Positions 24,572 to 37,307 of a stretch of DNA of 41,617 bases are shown here, piece by piece. Under the pieces are notes generated by a model, which saw nothing but the letters and a program-made list of their open reading frames with translations, searched no databases and was not told the origin of the DNA. A program made the position numbers and the translations under genes. The DNA comes from Deltaproteobacteria bacterium (GTDB taxonomy: Bacteria > Desulfobacterota > Desulfobaccia > Desulfobaccales > 0-14-0-80-60-11). Location of the stretch: NCBI GenBank assembly GCA_030018495.1, contig JASEFS010000031.1, positions 1 to 41,617 on the forward strand, read 5' to 3'. The number at the start of each line of letters is the position of its first letter. Position 1 is the stretch's first letter.

Positions 24572-24603
24572 TCCGGATAATTCAAGGACCGAAGGACTCG
24601 GTG

Positions 24604-24625
24604 GCACAGGCTTTCCAGCCTGTGC
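24604..24625. repeat. REP-like palindromic hairpin
   Basis: GCACAGGC (24604-24611), a 6-base loop TTTCCA and GCCTGTGC (24618-24625) form a perfect 8-base stem, followed by six A. It lies between convergent genes. It has the look of REP-type palindromes that recur in many bacterial genomes, and on the minus strand (T-run preceding the stem) it is not an intrinsic terminator. Confidence 0.6.
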
Positions 24626-30548: not shown

Positions 30549-31106
30549 ATGCTCGAAATCCGCTTTCACGGGCGCGGCGGGCAGGGCGCGGTCACTTCGG
30601 TGGAGCTCCTGGCGCTTGCGGCCATTAACGAAGGCAAGTTCGCCCAAGGCTTCCCCAGTTTCGGACCTGAGCGCCGGGGCGCGCCGGTACTGGCGTTTTT
30701 GCGCATCGACGACCGGCACATCCGCCTGCGCTGCAAGATCGAGGCGCCGGACGTGGTGCTCATTCTGGACCCGAGTCTGATTCGCATTCAGAAGCCGACC
30801 ACGGACTTGAAAAAGGACGGCCTTATCGTCCTGAACACCCCCAAATCCACTGAGGAAGTGCGCCGGGATTTCGGCTTTCACCACAAGCTGGCTCTGGTGG
30901 ACGCCGACACCATCGCCCGGGAGGTCTTGGGCGTGCCCATCACCAACACCACCATGCTGGGCGCCCTCATCAAGGCCACCGGGGTGGTGGCGGTGGATTC
31001 CATGCAGCACCCCCTCCAGGAGCGCTTTGGACCTTTGGCCGTCAAGAACTTTAATGCTTTGAAAGAAGCTTACGAAAAAACAGTAGTGGAGGAAGCCCGC
31101 CCGTGA
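30549..31106 (+). CDS. porG: 2-oxoacid:ferredoxin oxidoreductase, gamma subunit
   Basis: The protein is 185 aa. It begins MLEIRFHGRGGQGAVTSVEL, the gamma-domain G-R-G-G-Q-G motif, followed by FAQGFPSFGPERRGAPVLAF, both diagnostic of pyruvate and ketoisovalerate ferredoxin oxidoreductase gamma subunits. It forms part of the CoA-binding side of the complex. An AAGGA lies before the ATG, and a TATAAT (30471-30476) in the AT-rich upstream gap may be its -10 box. Its stop overlaps the next gene's GTG by four bases. It opens the seven-gene oxidoreductase-diaphorase operon. Confidence 0.93.
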   Translation: MLEIRFHGRGGQGAVTSVELLALAAINEGKFAQGFPSFGPERRGAPVLAFLRIDDRHIRLRCKIEAPDVVLILDPSLIRIQKPTTDLKKDGLIVLNTPKSTEEVRRDFGFHHKLALVDADTIAREVLGVPITNTTMLGALIKATGVVAVDSMQHPLQERFGPLAVKNFNALKEAYEKTVVEEARP

Positions 31107-31420
31107 CTACGAAATTCCGCATGGCTTTGCGCAAGCCCCTGGAAGAAACCACCTGGCAGGAAATCGAGCTGGGAGGCCTGCTCCGGGAGCCGGGCAGCGC
31201 CCGGGCCTACCGGGTGGGCGACTGGCGCAGCCAGCACCCGGTATGGACCAAAAGCCGCTGCATCCGCTGCGGCGTGTGCTGGACGGTGTGTCCTGAGCCG
31301 GCCATCATCGAGGAACCCGGCGGCTATTTCGATATGGACCCGGATTACTGCAAGGGCTGCGGCACTTGCGCCCGGGAGTGCGTCACCGGCTGCATCACCA
31401 TGGTGCCGGAGGAGGAGTGA
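31103..31420 (+). CDS. porD: 2-oxoacid:ferredoxin oxidoreductase, delta subunit (2x4Fe-4S ferredoxin)
   Basis: The protein is 105 aa from a GTG start overlapping porG by four bases. Two 4Fe-4S motifs are complete: C53, C56, C59 and C63 (CIRCGVCWTVCPEP), and C83, C86, C89 and C93 (CKGCGTCARECVTG). In the second the usual Pro after the last Cys is Val, and an extra C97 follows. The preceding W-R-S-Q-H-P-V segment is a delta-subunit hallmark. It passes electrons from the thiamine-centre subunits to an outside acceptor. The stop codon overlaps the start of porA (TGATG). Confidence 0.94.
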   Translation: MTTKFRMALRKPLEETTWQEIELGGLLREPGSARAYRVGDWRSQHPVWTKSRCIRCGVCWTVCPEPAIIEEPGGYFDMDPDYCKGCGTCARECVTGCITMVPEEE

Positions 31421-32613
31421 TGGCTAAGAAGACAGCAGCCGCCAAAAGAGTGGGCATGGAAGTCTCCATCGCGGTGAGCTATGCGGTGCAGCTGGCCCGG
31501 GCTGAAGCCATCGCCGCGTACCCTATTACGCCCCAGACCCATATTGTGGAGCATCTCTCGTCCCTGGTGGCCAACGGCGAACTGGACGCGGAGTTTGTCA
31601 ACGTGGAATCCGAGCATTCGGCCATCAGCACCTGCATCGGCATGTCCGCGGCCGGCGCCCGCACTTATACGGCCACCAGTTCCCAGGGCCTGGCGCTCAT
31701 GAACGAAATCCTCTACATCGTCAGCGCCATGCGCTTCCCCATCGTCATGACCGTGGCCAACCGGGCCTTGAGCGCGCCTCTGTCCATCTGGAACGACCAC
31801 TCTGACATCATGGGGGCCCGGGACATCGGCTGGATTCAGGTGTTCGTGGAAAACGGCCAGGAGGCCTTCGACCATTCCGTCATGGCTTTCAAGATCGCGG
31901 AAAACCATGAAGTTCTCCTGCCCATAATCGTCAATTTGGACGGCTTCATCCTGTCCCACGTGGTGGAGGCCCTGGAAATGGTGGATCAGGCCACGGTGGA
32001 CAAGTTTCTGCCGCCTTACGTGCCCCTCCACCGCTTGGACCCTCGGAATCCGGTGACCATGGGAGCCTTCGCGTTGCCGGAGATTTACACCGAAGTGAAG
32101 ATGAACCACCAAGTCACCCTGACCAAATCCTATGACCATATCCTCAAGGTCTGGGATGAATGGGGCAAACTCACCGGCCGGCAATATCATCCCGTGGAGC
32201 GCTATCGGACCGAGGATGCCAAAATTCTGCTTCTCATCATGGGATCGCTGGCTGAAGTGGCGGAGATCGCGGTGGACGAAATGCGGGACCAGGGGCTGCC
32301 GGTGGGGCTCTTGAAGCTCAGGATGTGGCGGCCCTTCCCCTTCAAGGACCTGAGGGACGCGGTGAACGGCGCGGAGCTGCTTATCGTCTGCGACCGGGCC
32401 CTGTCCCTGGGCGGCGTCGGCGGCCCGGTGATGTCCGAAGTGCGGAGCGCCCTTTATCCCATGGCCCAAAAGCCCGCAACCCTGGGCTACATCATCGGCC
32501 TGGGCGGCCGGGATGTGAACCCCGGCAATATTAAAGACATCGTGGCCCGGGCTCAGCAAGAGGCGAGCCAGGGCCCTCAGGAAGAATTTCACCTCTATGG
32601 AGTGAGAGGTTAA
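31420..32613 (+). CDS. porA: 2-oxoacid:ferredoxin oxidoreductase, alpha subunit (pyruvate type)
   Basis: The protein is 397 aa from the ATG at 31420, with GAGGAG just upstream; in-frame readings further up lie over porD. The sequence follows pyruvate-type alpha subunits: AYPITPQTHIVEHLSSLVAN, the VESEHSAISTCIGMSAAGAR segment, TATSSQGLALMNEILYI, and VANRALSAPLSIWNDHSD. The last resembles pyruvate synthases more than indolepyruvate or ketoglutarate enzymes. The C-terminal third is the transketolase-C-like domain (LRMWRPFPFKDLRDAVNGAE). It binds the 2-oxoacid substrate with the beta subunit's thiamine diphosphate. The stop overlaps the start of porB by one base. Confidence 0.94.
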   Translation: MAKKTAAAKRVGMEVSIAVSYAVQLARAEAIAAYPITPQTHIVEHLSSLVANGELDAEFVNVESEHSAISTCIGMSAAGARTYTATSSQGLALMNEILYIVSAMRFPIVMTVANRALSAPLSIWNDHSDIMGARDIGWIQVFVENGQEAFDHSVMAFKIAENHEVLLPIIVNLDGFILSHVVEALEMVDQATVDKFLPPYVPLHRLDPRNPVTMGAFALPEIYTEVKMNHQVTLTKSYDHILKVWDEWGKLTGRQYHPVERYRTEDAKILLLIMGSLAEVAEIAVDEMRDQGLPVGLLKLRMWRPFPFKDLRDAVNGAELLIVCDRALSLGGVGGPVMSEVRSALYPMAQKPATLGYIIGLGGRDVNPGNIKDIVARAQQEASQGPQEEFHLYGVRG

Positions 32614-33620
32614 TGGAAAAGTTCGGTTACGCCCAAAGTCAGAAATTTGATACCTATGCCTCCCGGCTCATGCCCCGGCAGGAGTATTTCACCATGGGGC
32701 ACCGCGCCTGTCAGGGCTGCGGCGAAGCTCTGGCGGTGCGCTGGGTTACCAAGGCCATAGGCAAAGACGCCATCATCGCCCATGCCACCGGCTGCATGGA
32801 AATCGTGTCCTCGGGAATGCCCCAGACGGCCTGGATGCACCCTTGGATCCACGTGGCCTTCGAGAATACCGCCGCGGTGGCTTCGGGCATTGAGACGGGC
32901 CTAAAGATCCTGGAACGCAAAGGCAAGCTTGCCGGTCCCATGCCCAAGGTGGTGGCTATGGGAGGCGACGGCGGCACCAGCGATATCGGCCTCCAGGCTT
33001 TGTCCGGGGCCATGGAGCGGGGCCACAATTTCACCTATGTCTGCTGGGATAACGAAGCCTACATGAACACCGGCATTCAGCGCTCCAGTTCCACGCCTTA
33101 CGGCGCCATGACCACTACGTCGCCGCCGGGCAAAAAGAGCATCGGCCAGTCCACCTGGAAGAAGAACATGGTGCACATCGCGGTGGCTCACGGCATTCCC
33201 TACGTGGCCACGGCCTCGCCCAGCTACATCTTTGACTTGTATTTCAAAGTGCGCAAAGCCCTGGAGACCCCCGGACCGGCCTACATCCACGTACTTTCAG
33301 TCTGTCCCACGGGCTGGCGCTCAGCTACGGATATGAGCGTGCGCCTGGGCCGCCTGGCGGTGGAAACCGGCATTTTCCCCCTCTATGAGGTGGTGGACGG
33401 CCGCTACCGCTTAACCGTGGAAGTGCCGAAAATGCGGCCTGTCAGAGACTACCTCAAGCTCCAGGGCCGTTTCCGGCACCTTCGTGACCCGGAGATCAAC
33501 CTCATTCAGCGTCATACCGAAGCCAATTACAAACTGCTTTTGGAAAAATGTCAGGCTCCTTTTCCGGAATTTCCTCCCATGTTTCCTCCGGAGGAGCCGG
33601 AGCTTGTGGCAGGTGCATAA
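32613..33620 (+). CDS. porB: 2-oxoacid:ferredoxin oxidoreductase, beta subunit (thiamine diphosphate, 4Fe-4S)
   Basis: The protein is 335 aa. The 4Fe-4S ligands are C33 and C36 (CQGCGEAL), C61 (HATGCMEIV) and C231 (SVCPTGW). The thiamine diphosphate motif starts at GDGG (118-121) and ends near N147 in CWDNEAYMNTGIQRSS; the following STPYGAMTTTSPPGKKS is typical of pyruvate enzymes. It makes and decarboxylates the 2-oxoacid-thiamine adduct and hands electrons to the clusters. The stop overlaps the next start by one base, so porGDAB and the NuoE-like gene are translationally coupled. Confidence 0.95.
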   Translation: MEKFGYAQSQKFDTYASRLMPRQEYFTMGHRACQGCGEALAVRWVTKAIGKDAIIAHATGCMEIVSSGMPQTAWMHPWIHVAFENTAAVASGIETGLKILERKGKLAGPMPKVVAMGGDGGTSDIGLQALSGAMERGHNFTYVCWDNEAYMNTGIQRSSSTPYGAMTTTSPPGKKSIGQSTWKKNMVHIAVAHGIPYVATASPSYIFDLYFKVRKALETPGPAYIHVLSVCPTGWRSATDMSVRLGRLAVETGIFPLYEVVDGRYRLTVEVPKMRPVRDYLKLQGRFRHLRDPEINLIQRHTEANYKLLLEKCQAPFPEFPPMFPPEEPELVAGA

Positions 33621-34075
33621 TGGACGAAGCACGGCTTGAAAGCATCCTCTCCCGTTATGAGGGGGAACCTTACGACCTGATCCCGATTTTGCAGGACATC
33701 CAGGATAATTACGGCTTCCTTCCCAAAGAGGAAGTCAAGGCGGTGGCCAGGCGCATTAACGTGCCCATTACCCAGGTATACAGCGTCGCCACCTTCTACA
33801 AAATGTTCAGCCTCATCCCCAAGGGCAAGCACCAACTCAAGGTTTGCCTGGGGACCACCTGCCATCTGAAGGGCGGCCAGCGTCTGGTGGACTCCCTCTC
33901 CAGCCGCTTGGGGGTGGAGGTGGGCTATACTTCCAAGGACGGCCAGTTTTCCCTGGAGACCGTGGGCTGTCTGGGCTCCTGCGCCCAAGCCCCGGTGATG
34001 ATGGTGGATGACAAGTATCATGCCCGGGTGACGGTGGACAAGGTTCCGAAGATTTTGAAGCAGTACCAGACGTAG
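33620..34075 (+). CDS. NuoE-like [2Fe-2S] diaphorase subunit
   Basis: The protein is 151 aa from the ATG at 33620, which overlaps the porB stop. The thioredoxin-like 2Fe-2S site has four ligands: C76 and C81 (CLGTTC), C117 and C121 (CLGSC). The N-terminal part carries LQDIQDNYGFLPKEEVKAVA and NVPITQVYSVATFYKMFS, as in NuoE, HoxE and HydC/HndA. This subunit relays electrons between the FMN subunit and other centres. Finding it in the same translationally coupled run as the 2-oxoacid oxidoreductase genes, rather than with nuo or hydrogenase genes, is the notable point. A REP-like element follows in the 129-base gap. Confidence 0.93.
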   Translation: MDEARLESILSRYEGEPYDLIPILQDIQDNYGFLPKEEVKAVARRINVPITQVYSVATFYKMFSLIPKGKHQLKVCLGTTCHLKGGQRLVDSLSSRLGVEVGYTSKDGQFSLETVGCLGSCAQAPVMMVDDKYHARVTVDKVPKILKQYQT

Positions 34076-34105
34076 CCGTAAGCGTTCATGAACCAGCAAA
34101 TAAAT

Positions 34106-34185
34106 TGTAGCCGCAGGCTTTAGCCTGCGAAAAAGGAATTGGTTTAATGCTTTTTTAAAGACGCAACCTAAAGGTTGCGGCTACA
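34106..34185. repeat. REP/BIME-like double-hairpin element
   Basis: The first hairpin is CGCAGGC (34112-34118), loop TTTA, GCCTGCG (34123-34129). The second is CGCAACC (34162-34168), loop TAAA, GGTTGCG (34173-34179). The ends TGTAGCCGC (34106-34114) and GCGGCTACA (34177-34185) are also a perfect 9-base inverted pair, so the 80-base unit is itself a palindrome. This is the shape of a mobile REP pair. Confidence 0.75.
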
Positions 34186-34204
34186 GAACTTATAGAGAAC
34201 GATT

Positions 34205-36058
34205 ATGCCCAGATTCGAATCGGTTGACCATCTGACTCAGTACAGGCGCCAGCTCAAGGCCAAATTTGACCCCGAGCAGCCCCGGGTTCTGGTCTGCGCC
34301 GGACCCGGCTGCCTGCCCCTGGGCAGCGAAGAGGTGGCCCAGGCCTTCAAGGAGGCCCTGGCCGAAAAGGGCCTGAACGGCAAAGTGGTGCTCAAGGTCT
34401 CAGGCTGCCAGGGGCTTTGCGCCAGGGGGGTGCGGGTCCTCCTCAGGCCTCGCGAAATCTCCTATCAAAAAGTCACGGTTCAGGATGTGCCCGAAATCGT
34501 GGAAACCACCTTGGTGAACGGGGGCATCGTGGACCGCCTGATTTATCAGGACCCCGCGTCTCAGGAAAAGTTCTCCCACAAGGGGGAGATCCCGTTCTAT
34601 AAAAATCAGCAGCCCATCGTCCTGCGCAAGCTGGACATCATCGATCCGGAAAGCCTGGACGATTACTTATTGATGGGAGGCTACCGCAGTCTCAGGAAAA
34701 TCTTCTTCGAGATGACCCCGGAGCAGGTGATTGACTTGGTGGAGCGCTCGGGACTCCGGGGCCGCGGCGGCGCCGGCTTCCCTACCGGGCGCAAATGGCG
34801 CATCTGCCGGGAAGCTCCGGAAGCGGTGAAATTCGTCATCTGCAACGGCGATGAAGGCGACCCGGGAGCCTTCATGGACCGGGCCGTGATGGAAGGCGAC
34901 CCCCACGCGGTCATCGAAGGCATGATTGTCGGCGCCTACGCCATCGGCGCCCGCCAGGGGCATATTTATGTGCGCCACGAATATCCCCTGGCGGTCAAGC
35001 GCCTGAAACTTGCCATTGAGCAGGCCCGGGACGCCGGCTTCCTGGGGAACAACATCCTGCGCTCCGGCTTCAATTTCGACATCAAGGTCAGCCAGGGCTC
35101 CGGCGCCTTTGTCTGCGGCGAAGAGACGGCCCTGATCGCGTCCATCGAAGGCTTCATCGGCGAACCCTCGCCCCGGCCGCCGTATCCGGCCCAGTCCGGA
35201 CTGTTCGGCCTCCCCACGGTGATCAACAATGTGGAAACCTGGGCCAACGTGCCCGAGATCATCAATATGGGCGGGGACTGGTACACGGCCATCGGCACGG
35301 AAAAAAGCAAGGGCACCAAGGTCTTTTCCCTGGTGGGCGCGGTAAACCACACCGGTCTGGTGGAAGTCCCCATGGGCACTACTCTCCGCCAGATAATCTA
35401 TGACCTGGGCGGCGGCATCCCCGACAACAAAGCATTCAAGGCGGTGCAGACGGGCGGCCCTTCCGGGGGCTGCATCCCCGCCAAGTTTTTGGATTTGCCG
35501 GTGGACTACGACAGCCTTCAGGAAGTGGGCTCCATCATGGGCTCCGGCGGCATGATCGTCATGGACGAGACCAGTTGCATGGTGGACGTGGCCCGCTATT
35601 TCATCGGCTTTCTCCATGCCGAATCCTGCGGCAAGTGCACTCCCTGCCGGGAAGGCCTCACCCAGCTGAAATATATTTACAACGAAATCATCAACGGCCG
35701 CGGGGAAGAATGGCATATTCCCCTCATGGAAGAGCTCTGCGCCGCTATGGGCTCGGCGTCTATCTGCGGTCTGGGCCAGAGCGCGGTCAATCCCGTGCTG
35801 TCGACGCTCAAGTATTTCCGGGACGAGTACGAAGCCCACATCCGGGATAAAAAGTGCCCGGCTCTGGTCTGCCGCCCTCTGCTGAAATACACCATCGACC
35901 CGGAGACCTGCACCGGCTGTCTGGCTTGCGTCAGGGAGTGTCCGGTGGGGGCCATTACCGGCCTCAAGAAGGAAGCCCAGGAGATCGACCAGGAGCTCTG
36001 CATCAAATGCGGCTTGTGTTATGAAATGTGTCAATTCGACGCGGTAAAAAGGGAGTAA
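34205..36058 (+). CDS. NuoF-like NADH-binding FMN/iron-sulfur subunit (HydB/HndC type)
   Basis: The protein is 617 aa, longer than NuoF because of extra clusters at both ends. The N-terminal 2Fe-2S thioredoxin-like domain has C31, C36, C68 and C72. The FMN/NADH domain holds GLRGRGGAGFPTGRKW (183-198) and CNGDEGDPGAFMDR (213-226). An SLBB segment follows, then the N3-type 4Fe-4S site C475, C478, C481 and C521. A C-terminal ferredoxin domain has C569/572/575/579 and C599/602/605/609. The layout equals HydB/HndC of electron-bifurcating hydrogenases. It oxidises or reduces NAD(H). It lies between NuoE-like and HoxU-like genes. The REP element upstream sits in the only wide gap of the operon. Confidence 0.94.
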   Translation: MPRFESVDHLTQYRRQLKAKFDPEQPRVLVCAGPGCLPLGSEEVAQAFKEALAEKGLNGKVVLKVSGCQGLCARGVRVLLRPREISYQKVTVQDVPEIVETTLVNGGIVDRLIYQDPASQEKFSHKGEIPFYKNQQPIVLRKLDIIDPESLDDYLLMGGYRSLRKIFFEMTPEQVIDLVERSGLRGRGGAGFPTGRKWRICREAPEAVKFVICNGDEGDPGAFMDRAVMEGDPHAVIEGMIVGAYAIGARQGHIYVRHEYPLAVKRLKLAIEQARDAGFLGNNILRSGFNFDIKVSQGSGAFVCGEETALIASIEGFIGEPSPRPPYPAQSGLFGLPTVINNVETWANVPEIINMGGDWYTAIGTEKSKGTKVFSLVGAVNHTGLVEVPMGTTLRQIIYDLGGGIPDNKAFKAVQTGGPSGGCIPAKFLDLPVDYDSLQEVGSIMGSGGMIVMDETSCMVDVARYFIGFLHAESCGKCTPCREGLTQLKYIYNEIINGRGEEWHIPLMEELCAAMGSASICGLGQSAVNPVLSTLKYFRDEYEAHIRDKKCPALVCRPLLKYTIDPETCTGCLACVRECPVGAITGLKKEAQEIDQELCIKCGLCYEMCQFDAVKRE

Positions 36059-36063
36059 GGTTC

Positions 36064-36822
36064 ATGCCCAGCAGAAAAATTGCGGACCTGGTTAAACCCC
36101 CCACCATCGAAGAAGTGGGTCTTTATATCAATGATGAATTTATCAGAGCTCCGGTGGAATTCACCATACTCCAGACGGCCCGGGCCAACGGCATCGATAT
36201 TCCCACTTTGTGCTATCATCGGGACCTGCCCTCGGAAGGCCATTGCCGGTTGTGCATGGTGGAGATCGGCGAACCTCCCCGCACCCGGCTGGTGAATTCC
36301 TGCACCTATCCGGTGGAAGCCAACCTGAAAGTACAGACGCATTCGGAAAAAGTCCTTCAGGCCCGGCGCATGGTGCTGGAATTGCTTATGGCCCAAGCCC
36401 CGGCTGCGGAGCTCATCAGAGACCTGGCCGCCCAACACGGGGTGTACGAAACCCGGTTTCATATCGAGGACCCGGAAGAGCGCTGCATCCTCTGCGGCTT
36501 GTGTGTCCGCACCTGCGCTGAAATCGTCGGAGTCTCCGCCATCAGCATGATCAACCGCACCCCGGAAAAGCAGGTGGCCACGCCTTTCAAGGAGGCCTCT
36601 GAAGCCTGCATCGGCTGCGGCTCCTGCGCTTTCATCTGCCCCACCAACGTCATCCCCTATACCGAAAAGGACGGCATCCGCACCATCTGGGGCCGGGACT
36701 TTGAACTCCAGGCCTGCACCGTATGCGGCAACTATATAGAGCCCAAGGCGCAGCTGGAACACTGGGCCGAAATCACCGGAGACCCGGTTGAAACTTTTTT
36801 TGTGTGCCGGGATTGCCGCTGA
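36064..36822 (+). CDS. HoxU / NuoG-N-like iron-sulfur subunit with C-terminal cysteine pairs
   Basis: The protein is 252 aa from the ATG at 36064, 5 bases after the NuoF-like stop. The plant-type 2Fe-2S site has C50, C61, C64 and C80. Two 4Fe-4S motifs follow, C141/144/147/151 and C182/185/188/192. The His-Cys cluster usually found between them in NuoG (H-x3-C-x2-C) is absent; the region reads MAQAPAAELIRDLAAQHGV. Two more CxxC pairs (C218/C221 and C248/C251) end the protein, as in a zinc ribbon or extra cluster. It completes a three-subunit diaphorase module, without hydrogenase H-cluster or molybdenum domains. The subunit likely wires the NuoF-like protein to PorD. Confidence 0.88.
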   Translation: MPSRKIADLVKPPTIEEVGLYINDEFIRAPVEFTILQTARANGIDIPTLCYHRDLPSEGHCRLCMVEIGEPPRTRLVNSCTYPVEANLKVQTHSEKVLQARRMVLELLMAQAPAAELIRDLAAQHGVYETRFHIEDPEERCILCGLCVRTCAEIVGVSAISMINRTPEKQVATPFKEASEACIGCGSCAFICPTNVIPYTEKDGIRTIWGRDFELQACTVCGNYIEPKAQLEHWAEITGDPVETFFVCRDCR

Positions 36823-36866
36823 AGATTCTCAACCTTATCTTAGGGATTAGGCGATAAACTGGTTGC

Positions 36867-36891
36867 CCGGCAGGGGCCTTGCTCCTGCCGG
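36867..36891. repeat. Strong palindromic hairpin after the oxidoreductase operon
   Basis: CCGGCAGGGGC (36867-36877), loop CTT and GCTCCTGCCGG (36881-36891) form an 11-base stem with one G-T pair. It is 45 bases after the last diaphorase gene. A weak T-run (TTTTTT near 36913) follows 21 bases later, so it may end transcription or be a single REP unit. Confidence 0.55.
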
Positions 36892-36986
36892 CTGGGATTT
36901 GGGCTGCTAAAATTTTTTCCTCTCTTCCGACTTTCCCAATCCCCGGCATTTAGTGCCGCCGCCAAAAATTCCGGGAGCGTTCCTCC

Positions 36987-37307
36987 ATGAAAAAAGCCAC
37001 TGCCGTAATCCTGGCAGGGTTGGTGCTGCTGTTTCTTATCAGCCTGTTTGCCGGACACAAGCTCTTTTCCGCGTCCGAGCGCGAACTGTCGCGAAGTTAC
37101 CATTCCCCGTCGACCACCGCAGCCGGGACTCAGGGAAAAGTCGATTTTCGCAAATTCCGGATGGCCTTCAGCTCCTTTGACCTGGCCGCCGGCCTGACCC
37201 CCAGGGACATGGAAGCCATTTCCACTCAGAGCCTGGCCTTCCCTTTTTACTTTCTCCTGGCCAGCCTGTGGCTGGTTCTCGGTTTGCGCAAACCGCGGCG
37301 GGGCTGA
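36987..37307 (+). CDS. Small protein with two predicted membrane segments, unknown function
   Basis: The product is 106 aa from the ATG at 36987, with GGGAG about 10 bases upstream. I do not recognise a family. A hydrophobic stretch (about residues 5-22, AVILAGLVLLFLISLFAG) starts the protein and a second one lies near residues 84-100 (FPFYFLLASLWLVLGL), followed by a basic tail KPRRG. Between them is a hydrophilic loop with DFRKFRMAFSSFDLAAGL. By the positive-inside rule both ends could be cytosolic. It may form a unit with the next gene, which starts 109 bases later. No function is claimed. Confidence 0.6.
   Translation: MKKATAVILAGLVLLFLISLFAGHKLFSASERELSRSYHSPSTTAAGTQGKVDFRKFRMAFSSFDLAAGLTPRDMEAISTQSLAFPFYFLLASLWLVLGLRKPRRG

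Follow-up and report, generated by a model that had tools for sequence, protein, structure and literature searches.

A pair of inverted GTAG-tagged REPs between two genes of an oxidoreductase operon, probably a relic of RAYT-driven spread

Introduction

The GTAG-tagged REP superfamily described by Di Nocera et al. (2013, PMC3733652) includes dimers with the GTAG tags outward, heterodimers, hybrid dimers of two families and genomes with several REP families and their own RAYTs (REP-associated transposases). The same paper describes genomes whose RAYT unit has been lost, as well as longer palindromes that enclose REP dimers. Doublets are the prevailing form in P. fluorescens SBW25 (Bertels and Rainey, 2011, PMC3116915), and the copy number of REP families is usually above 100 (Nunvar et al., 2010, PMC2817692). 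At the level of the transcript, REP structures can block exoribonucleases, and REPs are reported to slow translation only at 15 nt or less from the stop codon (PMC12306157).

Here, we analyzed an 80-base element within the window, which designates the whole stretch of 41,617 nucleotides under study. The host is probably of a Desulfobaccales type because the named relatives of the NuoF-like protein encoded beside the element (73-83% identity) are mostly Deltaproteobacteria, Syntrophobacterales, Desulfobacca and Desulfobaccales records. Desulfobacca was absent from the matches listed in the REP/RAYT literature, and four fragments of the window REP gave no match in the literature text, figures and supplements being beyond such a text search. 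We propose, with a probability of roughly 87%, that the element is an inverted GTAG-tagged REP heterodimer of the REPIN/BIME kind, which was spread by a RAYT, settled in a tolerant gap and is now orphaned.

Results

As presented in Table 1, the element lies between the NuoE-like and NuoF-like genes and is made of two inverted 24-base hairpins with their GTAG tags outward, in the order TGTAGCCGCAGGCTTTAGCCTGCG, a 32-base A/T-rich spacer and CGCAACCTAAAGGTTGCGGCTACA. An inverted-repeat search of the window gave 7 repeats at the setting used, the two arms (24 nt each, 83% complementary, 32 nt between them) making up the longest one. When the sequence was read directly, the outer ends matched perfectly over 10 bases (TGTAGCCGCA); the preliminary description of this DNA had correctly noted perfect inverted ends, with a length of 9 bases instead of 10. 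Each arm is a GTAG-tagged hairpin in its own right, with an 8-pair stem and an unpaired GTAG ending a 20-40 bp palindrome, as defines a GTAG-tagged REP, and the folds and the geometry show the two inverted REPs jointly forming a hairpin, as defines a REPIN or BIME. The predicted RNA fold of the element reached -36.2 kcal/mol (z -4.75) and the single-stranded DNA fold -23.8 (z -6.24), and in both cases 0/200 dinucleotide shuffles were as good. The window copy is extragenic: none of the listed ORFs of at least 80 aa spans it. An Rfam scan of 33900-34400 gave a chance match only, far under its gathering score.

Table 1. Coordinates of the operon genes and of the REP element in the window, and of the hybrid REP pairs found in the same genome
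Feature	Position	Strand	Evidence
2-oxoacid (pyruvate-type) ferredoxin oxidoreductase gamma, delta (ferredoxin-like), alpha and beta genes	30549..33620	+	PF01558, Fer4, PF01855/PF17147, PF02775; PorB model over cut-off
NuoE-like [2Fe-2S] subunit, upstream of the element	33620..34075	+	PF01257, NuoE models over cut-off
Whole REP heterodimer (REPIN-type), GTAG tags out	34106..34185	.	Inverted repeat, folds, pair counts
Left REP TGTAGCCGCAGGCTTTAGCCTGCG, AGGC stem type, commonest in the genome	34106..34129	+	Exact copies elsewhere in the genome
A/T-rich spacer, 32 bases, unlike the spacers of other pairs in the genome	34130..34161	.	Sequence comparison
Right REP TGTAGCCGCAACCTTTAGGTTGCG (minus-strand reading), AACC stem type	34162..34185	-	Repeat copies, hairpin
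NuoF-like subunit, downstream of the element	34205..36058	+	PF01512, PF10589
Hybrid REP pairs of the window's genome, inverted, without TIRs	C23 7999/8028; C23 59219/59248; C24 12128/12157; C52 16936/16962

These traits are those of the GTAG-tagged REP superfamily (PMC3733652): a terminal GTAG, an 8-pair stem with a minimal loop and, for the window copy, an intergenic position; GTAG-out dimers (the HH type of these authors) with a spacer of 20-100 bp; and heterodimers with different stems, hybrid dimers and the coexistence of several REP families, together with their RAYTs, in one genome. The stem found here is CGCAGGC/GCCTGCG, which may correspond to one of the 24 families of that paper or differ from them all. 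The likeness to the REPINs of SBW25 (PMC3116915) concerns the single long hairpin into which two inverted REPs fold as single-stranded DNA, and the dimensions, with a spacing of 71 bp between conserved 16-mers there and 78 bases from tag to tag here. Since its traits all appear in PMC3733652, the window pair is a new example of an already described REP type and is ordinary as a REP pair.

The operon extends from 30549 to 36822. According to domain profile matches, its first genes specify a 2-oxoacid ferredoxin oxidoreductase of the pyruvate type, and NuoE-like, NuoF-like and iron-sulphur subunits come next. The distance from the NuoE-like stop to the NuoF-like start is 129 bases, compared to overlaps or about 5 bases at the other junctions, which bears out the earlier statement that the element fills the sole wide gap of a tight operon. 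The first REP begins 30 bases past the NuoE-like stop and the second ends 19 bases short of the NuoF-like start. As the element places two GC-rich hairpins between genes, it might also be read as an intrinsic terminator or an attenuator acting within the operon. We consider this extremely improbable and rejected a terminator identity, as a terminator scan of 33900-37000 gave no site at the element; in addition, there is no run of T after the second hairpin.

Two other hairpins of the window had been associated with the element. The first, placed at 24604-24625 and found here at 24603-24625, had been presented as a related hairpin with a GCAGGC/GCCTGC-like core. Its core is instead GCACAGGC/GCCTGTGC, and it is the single copy in the window of a different REP family, GGCACAGGC-N6-GCCTGTGC, with 75 rows on two strands corresponding to about 42 distinct sites in the window's genome, and 0 in controls. 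The second, placed at 36867-36891 and found here at 36869-36889, past the last operon gene, had only 1 match in the genome at up to 3 mismatches. As a single copy it was rejected as a repeat: it is no REP, and it was not scored as a terminator.

The near-exact pattern of the window REP (at most 1 mismatch) gave 17 copies in the window's genome and 0 in the reversed control, and was present in 30 of the 99 genomes searched, with up to 87 copies (G013). When copies within 5 mismatches of any of four stem types were considered, at least 37 distinct copies, dispersed over many contigs, were obtained in the window's genome, and again 0 in the reversed-sequence control. This count was made over 34 loci by distance to the four consensus types; copies in other DNA of this genome, and those bearing indels or heavily decayed, such as a weak second arm at C4 66879, would come on top of it. 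A loose pattern (up to 2 mismatches) was discarded as a copy counter, being non-discriminating (119 matches vs 68 in reversed controls). The preliminary description had left its reading dependent on a genome-wide count, and the single-copy outcome that would have spoken against it is ruled out.

Most of these copies are singlets. Four same-family pairs within 80 bases were observed in the window's genome (on C23, C36, C40, which is the window, and C42), all with GTAG outward, compared to 0.022 expected at random; C4 carries a fifth pair in which one arm is degenerate. Among 98 genomes, 9 contained intact GTAG-out pairs with REPs 12-42 bases apart, at 22 places in all, and none contained the GTAG-inward control pairs. 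The AGGC/AACC combination of the window pair was also present in G027, from another family of the same order (5/5 places), and in G038, from the same phylum (3/4 places, one with a varied AGGC arm), while two G022 pairs combine an AGGC- or CGGC-type arm with an AATC-type arm. Pairs from the host's own family outside the window's genome (n = 10) are mostly AGGC/AGGC and shorter (67-74 bases). Spacers are related or identical among the G027 and among the G022 pairs, as expected for a unit multiplying whole, some of the G027 repeats being possibly duplications or contig ends; among the pairs of the window's genome, spacers are unalike.

We searched for RAYT genes in the assembly of the window's genome (99.97% complete, 63 contigs). 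NF047646 identified five of them, four of which were also given by PF01797 alone, the fifth, on C11, being detected through NF047646. Reading of the flanks assigned them to other REP families, namely GTAGGGCGGGAAAGCGC (C24), TTCCCAAGCTCCTGCTTGGGAA (C11), GGCACAGGC...GCCTGTGC (C10 and C36, the family of the 24603-24625 hairpin) and GTAGGGGCGCAATTCATTGCGCCC (C14), and the window REP was in none of the five fetched flanks. RAYT genes, for which the preliminary description had suggested looking, thus exist in this genome, but all adjoin other families. Two of these genes had peculiarities of their own. The C14 gene is flanked by REPs of the GTAGGGGC family and contains a REP pair of this same family in frame within its ORF, just past the HxH motif (L034:1612-1664, ORF 1324-1953). 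The C36 gene (L033:1163-1836) is split into two overlapping ORFs in different frames and is apparently frameshifted.

By contrast with the window's genome, where no RAYT is flanked by the window REP, relatives G005 and G014 possess arrangements comparable to the RAYT-REP units of PMC2817692, with the RAYT between two inverted copies of its own REP. In G005, a 160-aa RAYT has GTAGCCGCAGGCTTTAGCCTGCG just upstream and an inverted copy just downstream, within a few tens of bases. Its relative in G014 (64% identity) has the REP on both sides, a fragment in G017 (66%) has it on one side, and the G027 relative (53%) has two REP pairs upstream. The G005, G014 and G027 proteins exceed the NF047646 REP-associated transposase cut-off, and these four genomes contain 36 (G005), 45 (G014), 60 (G017) and 12 (G027) strict REP copies. 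The flank test covered 30 relative loci and 69 further numbered loci, a subset of the RAYT matches in which several loci cover one gene twice; at two of them (L088 and L095) the window REP lies about 0.3-1 kb from a RAYT match, without being adjacent. In L141 (G017) and L136 (G014), the cognate RAYT lies at the same position beside a gene that we read as recA-like, with only a fragment and another adjoining REP-like repeat in L141.

No counterpart of the cognate RAYT was found in the window's genome (best match, 27% identity), from which it seems to have been lost. Among the 15 genomes with at least 12 strict copies, a close cognate RAYT was detected in only 4 (G005, G014, G017 and G027) and in none of the other 11. 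Given that 11 of 15 lack a close RAYT, REP populations here are orphaned as a rule, unless they are served by a further type of RAYT or by another mover. Overall, a multicopy GTAG-tagged repeat, inverted pairs far above chance and a cognate RAYT beside the REP in relatives support the initial identification of a REP pair.

The orthologous NuoE-NuoF pair was available for 21 relatives. The window's REP family was in the gap of none of them (0/21), and the gap measured 13-18 bases in 9 relatives and 50-211 in 12. In G013, which belongs to another genus, a different GTAG REP, GTAGGGGCATGGCGAGCCATGCCC, occupies the same gap (L116); a scan of the wide gaps of the relatives found a tagged hairpin in only two, with a sequence that differs from the window's. 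On this sequence comparison, the element is not the sole cause of wide NuoE-NuoF gaps. Without the 80-mer, the window gap would measure 49 bases compared to 50 in same-genus G001, an agreement of length only, the sequences mismatching by eye. The element had initially been called inserted: its absence from the orthologous gap in 21/21 relatives speaks only indirectly for this wording, and no empty site was alignable, and the act of insertion is what we infer. Because its width varies from 13 to 211 bases and one relative has a different GTAG REP, the gap looks like a tolerant sequence where small repeats settle, permissive rather than regulatory.

These data also bear on the hypothesis that selection has kept the pair as an operon-internal RNA element, stabilizing the upstream oxidoreductase-NuoE message compared to NuoF and thereby setting the subunit ratio. 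The strength of the RNA fold, the position between genes of one operon and the capacity of REPs to block exoribonucleases (PMC12306157) would agree with such a role. However, we regard it as unlikely, in view of the absence of the element from all the relatives compared, the narrowness of the gap in nine of them, the presence of a tagged hairpin, of different sequence, in only two of the other wide gaps, and a first REP starting beyond the 15-nt stalling distance (PMC12306157).

In addition to same-family pairs, the window's genome contains four inverted hybrid pairs of the GTAGCCGC and GGTGGCACAGGC REP families, with starts about 26-29 bases apart (Table 1). A related association was observed in the sister genus g2 (G002, G010 and G017), in 40 REP sites hand-picked among the matches listed (20 from G010, 13 from G002 and 7 from G017; L290-L329, e.g. 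L293, L313 and L317). A GCACAGGC...CCTGTGC hairpin, which belongs to the family of 24603-24625, directly adjoins 34/40 of these REPs of the window's family. Moreover, 23/40 are inside a 100-101 base element starting with TACC(A/G)AGTTGC and ending with TTGA.TGC...TGGTA, and 19 of the 24 elements with both ends recognized are flanked by an exact 3-base TNA duplication (mean of 5.9 and maximum of 14 for shuffled pairing). As judged from its sequence, with TACC...GGTA ends and TNA duplications, the g2 element has the hallmark of a MITE of the TIR type in which a hybrid REP pair is enclosed. Among the literature matches listed, as judged from titles and the start of abstracts, a REP pair inside a MITE of this type is undescribed.

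The window pair might also derive from a piece of a TIR-type MITE, or of a hybrid REP pair like those of g2, instead of having been moved by its own RAYT. The adjoining hairpins and duplications of g2, together with the hybrid pairs of the window's genome, are in favor of this origin, which we nevertheless find very unlikely: the TIR was present in 0 of the loci examined in the window's genome, the sequence around the window pair shows no duplication at its flanks, and the pair is no hybrid, both of its REPs belonging to one family, with 78 bases from tag to tag.

Discussion

The preferred reading, that of a RAYT-spread REP heterodimer, would involve the following steps. The pair most likely spread as single-stranded DNA through a RAYT (HUH single-strand transposase), close relatives of which have this same REP on their flanks in sister genomes, and would have settled within the tolerant gap between two oxidoreductase genes. 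Since the search of the window's genome recovered no cognate RAYT, this copy is probably an immobile relic. On the transcript, the strong predicted hairpin could slow 3' exonucleases, more as a mild side effect than as a dedicated switch. An effect on mRNA stability or on the subunit ratio, as put forward in the preliminary description, is plausible and, if there is any, partial stabilization of the upstream message would be the likeliest, since REP structures can block exoribonucleases (PMC12306157).

Several observations weigh against the REP/RAYT reading. The 37 copies are low compared to the usual number (PMC2817692), and this modest copy number and the missing cognate RAYT also set the locus apart from the superfamily of PMC3733652. 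Unlike the doublets of SBW25 (PMC3116915), copies are mostly singlets, and spacers differ within the genome. Finally, 11 of the 15 copy-rich genomes have no close RAYT, and no empty site was aligned.

A joint reading of these data can be offered tentatively, as possible though not the more probable account. REPs would be interchangeable end modules in this bacterial family, and a population might outlive its own RAYT by hybrid pairing with a family whose RAYTs survive. The g2 hybrid pair would then have been captured by a TNA-duplicating TIR element moved by a different transposase, and the window pair would be the relic of an earlier RAYT-driven phase. If true, a REP pair carried in a TIR/TNA-duplication MITE would be a second route for REP spread.

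Overall, this work describes a REP/RAYT system from a group that has been little studied and is probably Desulfobaccales-like. It also suggests that a repeat within an operon need not be regulatory, as the same gap in relatives is narrow and empty, filled by another REP, or wide and REP-free.
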